DNA of 64,000 nucleotides, taken from the NCBI RefSeq assembly GCF_017874375.1, contig NZ_JAGGLK010000003.1, forward strand, positions 124,001 through 188,000, given 5' to 3'. The notes below the pieces were generated by a model that saw only the letters and a program-made list of their open reading frames with translations, ran no database searches and was not told the DNA's origin. How positions within the stretch are numbered: the first letter of the stretch is position 1; the number at the start of each line of letters is the position of its first letter. This document shows positions 50,525 through 52,074 of this stretch, one piece after another. The stretch comes from Methanohalophilus levihalophilus (GTDB taxonomy: Archaea; Halobacteriota; Methanosarcinia; Methanosarcinales; Methanosarcinaceae). The translations under genes and the position numbers were made by a program.

Positions 50525-50578
50525 ACGCATCAGTCCATAAAGACTAACAGATATTTAATGTTTTTCTAGGTATAAGTT

Positions 50579-50891
50579 GACAGGCACGCCTTGGGTCGAT
50601 GTCCTTCACACCAACAAGTGGTCTGCAATCTCTCCTCCACTCCGCAACCCTGAAAGCGATGTATGCTCACGGTAAGCCTGCTCCCTTCCGGGCCTCGGCC
50701 GTTCTCCACGATGAAGATGCAGAAACTGATTCTCCAACCAGTCCCCATATCACCACCATCCAGACAGGACGGGGCTTCGCAGTTGAGATCACAGGTTTGA
50801 AGATGATCCAGAGACCTTCCTTCGGCTTCGTCCCCCGCTTATCGACGATTTCGGGTTATAGATAACGCCGAGCTACCCGGACTAGCCTGCC
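50579..50891 (-). ncRNA. ffs: SRP RNA (7S RNA)
   Basis: The RNA of the signal recognition particle, about 313 nt. The ends pair: GGCAGGC at the 5' side with GCCTGTC at the 3' side (helix 1). Near the 5' end, TAGCTCGGCG...AACCCGAAATCGTCGATAAGCGGGGG and ACGAAGCC match the archaeal Alu domain. The SRP54-binding helix 8 is marked by GGAAGGGAGCAG (50678-50689). The exact ends are estimated from pairing and the TATA box. It and tRNA-Ser probably form one transcript, an arrangement also known in other methanogens. Confidence 0.95.
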
Positions 50892-50914
50892 ATGCCCTAA
50901 ATGGGCACGCTGGG

Positions 50915-51112: not shown

Positions 51113-51120
51113 TTTTATAC
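51113..51120 (+). promoter_or_regulatory. TATA box before the candidate structured RNA
   Basis: TTTTATAC stands 25-30 bases before 51141-51148, where the paired region of the candidate RNA begins. Confidence 0.5.
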
Positions 51121-51147
51121 TTTGAAGCCTTAAAAAGGAGTAACATA

Positions 51148-51265
51148 GTGGGGTGGTACCGACGGAGGCAGATGGTTCAAAAAGCATCGCCTTCATGGGC
51201 CGTCTGCCCATCTCGTTTAAACACATGGGACGTCGGTGGTTTGTATAACAGCATTTCCACCCCAC
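51148..51265 (+). ncRNA. candidate structured RNA of unknown class
   Basis: About 118 nt with nested pairing: GTGGGGTGG (51148-51156) with CCACCCCAC (51257-51265), ACCGACG (51158-51164) with CGTCGGT (51231-51237), and GGCAGATGG (51167-51175) with CCGTCTGCC (51200-51208, one G-U). CCCAT (51207-51211) can also pair with ATGGG (51225-51229). ACA follows the closing stem at 51264-51266, as in H/ACA guide RNAs, but the loops do not obviously form a guide pocket. It is not 5S rRNA, tRNA or a known riboswitch as far as I can see. A GTG frame begins at 51148 behind GGAG, but its product has no domain. Confidence 0.55.
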
Positions 51266-51423
51266 AAATTCTTATCCTGCACACTTATTCCCTTTTTGAT
51301 TCTTTTGAGAAGTTGAAATCCAAACGAACCTCTTATATACAAATCACTTCACTTAATCCATACCGAGTTTGAATTGTATTACAAATCCATTTTATTTCAA
51401 CACCAAAATCTCCGGAATTACGA

Positions 51424-52074
51424 ATGTCAGTCGATGAAAACACAAAAACAGTTCTGAAGGAAATCGGAAATGTTAAACTCGTTTCCGTCACCAAGACCGT
51501 GGACGCTGAGCGGATAAATCAGTCTATCAGGGCAGGTGCAACAATCATAGGGGAGAACAGGGTTCAGGAATTTGAAGACAAGTGTGCTGAAATCCTGCCC
51601 TGTGAAAGGCATCTGATTGGTCATTTGCAGTCCAACAAGGTCAAAAAAGCTGTCCAGTATTTTGATATCATACAGTCAGTTGACTCCCTGAAGCTGATTC
51701 AGGACATTGACGGGAAAGCCGAAGCAATTGGAAAAGTACAGGAAGTTTTTCTTCAGGTAAATATCGGAGATGAACCTCAGAAATATGGCTTTGATCTCGA
51801 TGAAATCAACTCTGTAGTATCCGAAATTCATTCATACGACAACATCCTTGTGAAAGGTCTTATGTGCATACCTCCGTATGGGTCTCCTGAGGAAACTCGT
51901 TTGTATTTCAGGAAAATGAAAGCGCTTTTTGATGAGATGAAAGGGGAGAATAGCGGCAATATCGATATTCAGGAACTTTCCATGGGTATGTCCGGTGATT
52001 ACAGGGTGGCCATTGAGGAAGGGGCTACGATGGTGCGTGTCGGTTCCGGAATTTTCGGGAATAGGAAATATTGA
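51424..52074 (+). CDS. YggS/PROSC pyridoxal-phosphate homeostasis protein
   Basis: A 216-residue PLP-binding TIM barrel that buffers free PLP rather than catalysing a known reaction. The PLP lysine is in LVSVTKTVDAE near residue 24. Conserved blocks IGENRVQEF, HLIGHLQSNK, GLMCIPPYG and LSMGMSGDY plus VRVGSGIFG follow. A TATA-like TTATATAC at 51333-51340 precedes the gene. It is downstream of the candidate RNA but separated by 158 bp. Confidence 0.95.
   Translation: MSVDENTKTVLKEIGNVKLVSVTKTVDAERINQSIRAGATIIGENRVQEFEDKCAEILPCERHLIGHLQSNKVKKAVQYFDIIQSVDSLKLIQDIDGKAEAIGKVQEVFLQVNIGDEPQKYGFDLDEINSVVSEIHSYDNILVKGLMCIPPYGSPEETRLYFRKMKALFDEMKGENSGNIDIQELSMGMSGDYRVAIEEGATMVRVGSGIFGNRKY

Follow-up and report, generated by a model that had tools for sequence, protein, structure and literature searches.

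A structured RNA gene outside the recognised archaeal RNA classes in Methanohalophilus levihalophilus and some Methanolobus species

In Methanohalophilus levihalophilus, the interval between the SRP RNA gene (50578-50892, minus strand) and a gene that we take to be YggS-like (51424-52074, plus strand) raises the question of whether it holds an RNA gene of its own and, if so, of what kind. An initial annotation of the window (the whole 64,000-nucleotide stretch of DNA analysed here) had placed at this locus a structured RNA that it left unexplained, preceded by a TATA box, built of three nested stems and belonging to no known archaeal class. The plus strand of 51148-51265 has a folding energy of -53.6 kcal/mol, against a mean of -34.7 kcal/mol (sd 3.4) for shuffled sequences (z -5.62; 0/200 shuffles match), and the minus strand of the same interval reaches -43.8 kcal/mol (z -3.58). 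Since the minus strand folds less well, the plus strand is the likely RNA strand. The flanks of this RNA core are AT-rich, as had been described. The stems themselves were thus supported by the fold, but their nesting was not: two stacked outer helices, P1 and P2, enclose two adjacent hairpins, P3 and P4, which stand side by side in a three-way junction.

All elements of the core lie on the plus strand. The closing helix P1 is made of nine perfect pairs between GTGGGGTGG (51148-51156) and CCACCCCAC (51257-51265), and P2 pairs 51157-51164 with 51231-51238. P3 (51167-51208) has a stem formed by 51167-51179 and 51196-51208, with a short inner stem, and P4 (51211-51230) has a stem formed by 51211-51216 and 51225-51230, with a loop that reads CGTTTAAACACAT in the window and mostly CGCTTGAAYAMAT in Methanolobus. 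P2 and P1 are separated by a long 3' bulge, 18 nt in the window, within which lies the unpaired conserved motif TAACAGCAT (51246-51254). Across the copies described below, the spacing between P1 and P2 is 0-1 nt on the 5' side and about 18-22 nt on the 3' side.

At the DNA level, homologues of this RNA were not detectable. BLASTN against 60 relatives gave nothing convincing (best match no better than E 0.02, all of at most 41 nt), and similarity in plasmids and phages came down to short chance matches. A covariance model made from the window copy alone (R1) was run on 111 genomes of the family and, besides the window, found four copies, all of one genus, Methanolobus (E 1e-14 to 5e-7). With a five-sequence model (R2), 12 copies were detected at E <= 5e-4 in 27 Methanolobus genomes, a 13th match (E 0.83) being left out of the copy count, and no further match below E 0.16 was observed in 185 genomes of the order. 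A third model (R3), made from 11 Methanolobus copies with the window excluded, recovered the window copy at 71.5 bits (E 1.1e-15). R1 and R3, built from the window only and from Methanolobus only, find each other's copies, and the discovery is therefore reciprocal and independent. In 38 further genomes, R3 detected an altered copy, in genome G085 (E 5.7e-10), and otherwise nothing below E 0.38. Together with the window copy, the 11 intact copies from Methanolobus and the much-altered one of G085 make up a set of 13 sequences. Each genome carries one copy, and the named hosts include Methanolobus vulcani (PL 12/M), M. bombayensis (DSM 7082) and M. profundi (Mob M).

Several weaker matches were examined and rejected. 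The only addition given by R3 in 392 genomes of the phylum (G386, E 0.051) and the only one in 40 more genomes of the family (G021, E 0.1) both lie inside long open frames. Locus L095 (E 0.051) falls in a frame of 486 codons and L169 (E 0.1) in one of 818 codons, both leaving out stems of the model, L072-L074 (E 0.16-0.9) are within coding frames of 170-odd codons, presumably McrD, and L088-L092 are in frames or in an array. No match to the RNA pattern was observed in a collection of viral contigs, and the YggS-like protein, used as a query against viral contigs, had no match there.

We then analyzed whether the pairing is conserved in the relatives, a check named in the initial annotation. 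Compensatory changes were found: in the alignment of the 13 copies, which was fitted to the model, 93.0% of cells pair and 20 of the 33 pairs show two-sided changes. The covariation score of these 13 rows was 0.410, compared to 0.210 for shuffled versions (0/500 as high) and at most 0.151 for slid ones. For the 11 Methanolobus copies by themselves, 92.6% of the 363 cells are paired, 12/33 pairs have two-sided changes and the score was 0.333 (0.189 when shuffled, at most 0.131 when slid); in the MAFFT alignment used (A6), P2 of L058 and L059 is one column off register, which lowers rather than raises these pair counts. RNAalifold, which made its own prediction on the first five copies, gave two-sided changes in 21/38 pairs. 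Within Methanolobus, the bulk of the covariation comes from P3 (two-sided changes in 9/12 modelled pairs), and P2 has such changes in 5/7 modelled pairs on 13 copies. P1 is paired in 97.4% of cells on 13 copies and nearly invariant in sequence; on the 11 Methanolobus copies none of its nine pairs shows two-sided changes and four never vary, its covariation (4/9 pairs) stemming from the window and G085. As judged from the aligned copies, paired mutations are shown to maintain the shape of the RNA: closing helix, P2 and three-way junction. The P4 loop is more conserved than most stems, and the UAACAGCAU bulge is likewise conserved though unpaired. As P3 is free to vary and sequence is retained in P1, in the P4 loop and in the bulge, these three elements would make up the functional surface of the molecule.

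Two variations on this fold were observed. In the G085 copy (L070, 1501-1633), the formerly G/C-rich closing helix has become A/T-rich, several of its pairs persisting, and this copy may be either a live variant or a case of decay under way. In most Methanolobus copies (noted at L058, L062, L063, L065 and L066), UAUC before P1 and GAUA after it could pair as an additional outer helix, P0, separated from P1 by a 4x4 internal loop; P0 is absent from the window fold. On 12 of the 13 copies (L070 left out), the outer three positions of P0 are paired in 21/36 cases compared to 14.4 when shuffled (0.5% as high), and all seven positions in 56/84 compared to 48.6 (1.7% as high). P0 is likely to form in the Methanolobus copies.

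The TATA box noted initially is present: TTTATA at 51114-51119 (plus strand), identified by sequence only, 34 nt before P1. A TATA-like box also precedes the other copies: it lies 37-39 nt from P1 in 9/13 copies and 32 nt from it in G085, with two more found by eye. In Methanolobus psychrophilus, the TATA-to-start distance is 19-22 nt according to PMC5378194, and this spacing, added to the TATA position, predicts a transcription start in the window near 51139-51145 (plus strand). Behind the core, a run of five T at 51293-51297 (plus strand), 28 nt after P1, is a possible terminator; a run of at least four T follows P1 at 9-18 nt in 11/13 copies and is lacking in L067. TATA distance, T-run, varied neighbours and a separable deletion, the latter two described below, are what an intergenic sRNA with its own transcription unit displays in sequence. 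Taken together, these features point to a non-coding RNA gene that stands by itself, about 145 nt long, with a predicted archaeal TATA promoter of its own and a T-run downstream. Its activity in M. levihalophilus is putative.

We also compared the RNA with known classes. Over the whole window, Rfam 15 at gathering scores recovered SRP RNA and tRNA (tRNA-Ser) alone, without a match in the RNA core; at E <= 10 the locus gave two chance matches, both outside the core, and in the six relative loci scanned (out of 12) no match at E <= 5 overlapped the RNA. This covariance-model search, also named initially as a check, thus agrees with the view that the RNA belongs to no known archaeal class. The ACA after the closing stem, which had been offered as a hint, did not hold: it occurs in 8/13 copies only, is missing in the alignment from L065, L067, L068, L069 and L070, and is partly paired, its A and C pairing with the 5' GTG. 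In those eight copies the hairpin followed by ACA recalls archaeal H/ACA guide RNAs, from which the family differs in having no internal pocket unpaired on both sides. With its ACA unconserved and partly paired, no two-sided guide pocket and no Rfam H/ACA match, an H/ACA guide RNA was rejected. A C/D box RNA was rejected as well, RTGATGA and CTGA boxes not being found when 51143-51270 was read by eye. A sequence-conserved closing helix bearing variable hairpins is a trait that, to our understanding, the RNA shares with Y RNAs and YrlA bound to Ro60. Y RNA/YrlA systems have Ro60, whereas the TROVE protein is absent from the genomes tested for it (0/28; the control of this search gave its match in Deinobacterium), and a Y RNA was rejected.

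The comparison was extended to small RNAs of methanogens. R3 found no homologue in the g8 genomes searched, which we take to be Methanosarcina; sRNA154 was compared indirectly, via R3 and the promoter. No copy was found in G079, presumably the genome of M. psychrophilus R15, and on this assumption the R15 transcriptome cannot have shown this RNA. The cold-induced sRNAs of M. psychrophilus R15, a member of the same genus as the relatives found here, are stand-alone and have TATA promoters, as described in PMC5378194. In Methanosarcina mazei, of the same family Methanosarcinaceae, sRNA154 and sRNA41 are likewise stand-alone, intergenic, provided with their own promoter and limited to a genus-level lineage, and sRNA154 has a stable structure with two loops touching mRNAs (reviewed in PMC5867862). 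The NrpR operator of sRNA154 is GGTA-N6-TACC according to PMC3177094. A search for GG(A/T)A-N6-T(A/T)CC in the 200 nt upstream gave 0/13 copies, and NrpR control as in sRNA154 was rejected. No description of the RNA was found in the full-text literature collection searched. Overall, the RNA is a new family, and not a Y RNA, an H/ACA RNA, a C/D RNA or a detectable homologue of sRNA154.

Among the genomes searched, the RNA was found outside the window only in some Methanolobus species, and none of the seven genus-mates of M. levihalophilus has a copy. In 10 Methanolobus genomes without a copy, no remnant was observed in the matching neighbourhood (best E 0.051, unfiltered, for a stem-only match). 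The distribution was mapped on a tree of SMC from 29 genomes, among them 26/27 Methanolobus (no SMC was obtained for G082). The RNA occurs in 12/16 genomes of one Methanolobus clade and 0/10 of the other; it is present in the window's genome, G000, and absent from its sister, G002. This pattern requires four changes on the tree, compared to a shuffled mean of about 9.8 (0/500 as low). Since whole species are without it, the RNA gene is, judging by this distribution, accessory, dispensable and lineage-limited rather than housekeeping. The window copy has 53-60% identity to the intact Methanolobus copies, below most values between Methanolobus copies, and a recent transfer from Methanolobus is therefore unlikely. 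In G002, the SRP RNA faces mre11 and the gene presumed to be yggS-like is on another contig (50892-51292 compared with L049 and L032); given this difference in gene order, the RNA gene would lie at or near a rearrangement point.

The genes downstream of the RNA vary: yggS in the window and, elsewhere, a CxxCH protein, small membrane proteins or rubrerythrin. In Methanolobus, rubrerythrin is within 2.1 kb downstream in 7/12 cases and at about 4.5-6.4 kb in four more, whereas the genome of the window has it on a different contig. If the RNA were a cis-acting leader (a riboswitch or an attenuator), a gene on the same strand would be expected to follow, and one does start some 75-160 nt downstream in the window as well as for several copies in Methanolobus. 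However, no downstream gene class is constant, and in G088 both genes flanking the RNA are on the opposite strand, the next gene thus pointing the opposite way. The yggS gene, separate from the RNA unit, has its own TATA box at 51333-51339 (plus strand), and this BRE/TATA is conserved in relatives without the RNA. In G096, nested among the carriers, an alignment with four relatives showed that TATA box, RNA and T-run are gone and that both flanks and the TATA of the next gene are kept. The RNA unit is therefore separable, and a leader appears very improbable to us. The same presence or absence of about 200 nt could also be the mark of a mobile or selfish element, or its relic, carried as a compact RNA-coding unit, and so could a single copy in one of the eight genomes of the window's genus, at a site with a gene order unlike that of G002. 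We give this possibility about as little credit as the leader, as against it stand the one copy per genome, a Methanolobus site that is largely syntenic (rubrerythrin downstream in 11/12), a presence that tracks the species tree, and a search in which no flanking repeats were found and the viral contigs gave nothing.

The 74-codon frame that is open from the GTG at 51148 has, 6-7 nt upstream, a textbook-like Shine-Dalgarno-like sequence, AAAAAGGAG (51133-51141), which appears fortuitous. Both would suit a small protein gene, which the initial annotation had found unconvincing. This judgement was borne out in the 10 intact Methanolobus copies counted (L068 not included), where the frame stops after 11-42 codons and the peptides are unlike; compared to all of these copies, the window lacks one G of P1, and its frame is shifted. 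Moreover, the frame crosses the conserved yggS promoter and, given the predicted start at 51139-51145, AAAAAGGAG would lie at or before the start of transcription. Of all the explanations weighed, a protein gene is the one we consider least probable. A separate observation concerns G002, which has a long CRISPR array (L089, about 930-2880) of about 32 repeats GAGTTCCCCACACACGTGGGGATGAACCG with 61-62 nt spacing, presumably type I-E-like from its repeat. P1 (GTGGGG/CCCCAC) could mimic such a repeat stem and bind the repeat-processing protein, and the repeat agrees in 12/14 letters with the 5' terminus of most copies from Methanolobus. Yet this resemblance is near chance, 6-19 of 300 shuffles being as good in the nine best copies and 148/300 for the window, the strand order of the stem is permuted, and G002 itself is without the RNA. 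A CRISPR-related RNA is accordingly close to implausible in our view, only slightly ahead of the protein gene.

By analogy, the best explanation, which we favour with modest confidence, is a free-standing gene for an archaeal intergenic sRNA that regulates in trans. We put it first because the members of the same family, sRNA154 and sRNA41, act so according to PMC5867862, and because a patchy genus-level presence fits a regulator better than a housekeeping RNA. Transcription would proceed from the RNA's own TATA promoter and end at the T-run, P1-P3 would serve as a scaffold, P1, fixed in sequence, would be the likely protein-binding site, and the unpaired conserved P4 loop and TAACAGCAT bulge would contact targets, either mRNA or protein. 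Against this regulatory reading, the trans step is drawn by analogy and the window copy has no counterpart in the seven genus-mates; when complementarity to ribosome-binding sites was considered, no conserved case was noticed. A structural RNP scaffold or protein-sequestering RNA, which would work by retaining a protein at P1, at the P4 loop and at the bulge, without mRNA pairing, is a serious but distinctly less likely explanation. It would account for a P1 sequence fixed beyond pairing needs (4/9 pairs invariant, none two-sided, in 11 copies) and for the conservation of the unpaired motifs. On the other hand, no partner was found, the obvious candidate, the Ro/TROVE family, being absent in 28/28 genomes, and the patchy presence speaks against a housekeeping RNP. 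Similarly doubtful is that the molecule represents a new class of methanogen RNA, a compact RNP in which a protein would read the GUGGGGGUGG/CCACCCCCAC helix, the P4 loop and UAACAGCAU bulge would form one active surface, and the whole would have an accessory role, unserved by known RNA classes, in marine or halophilic methylotrophic methanogens. If true, it would be the first RNA of its class in methanogens.

Overall, these results confirm that the initial annotation was right in recognising an unrecognised structured RNA at this locus. Very few stand-alone structured archaeal RNAs outside the universal classes are backed by covariation. Within one archaeal family, a structured RNA gene can escape DNA similarity and yet surface via a single-sequence covariance model. 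Since the consensus fold is precise, at least three hosts are named and G096 offers a natural deletion, the role of this RNA is open to a comparison of close relatives with and without it.
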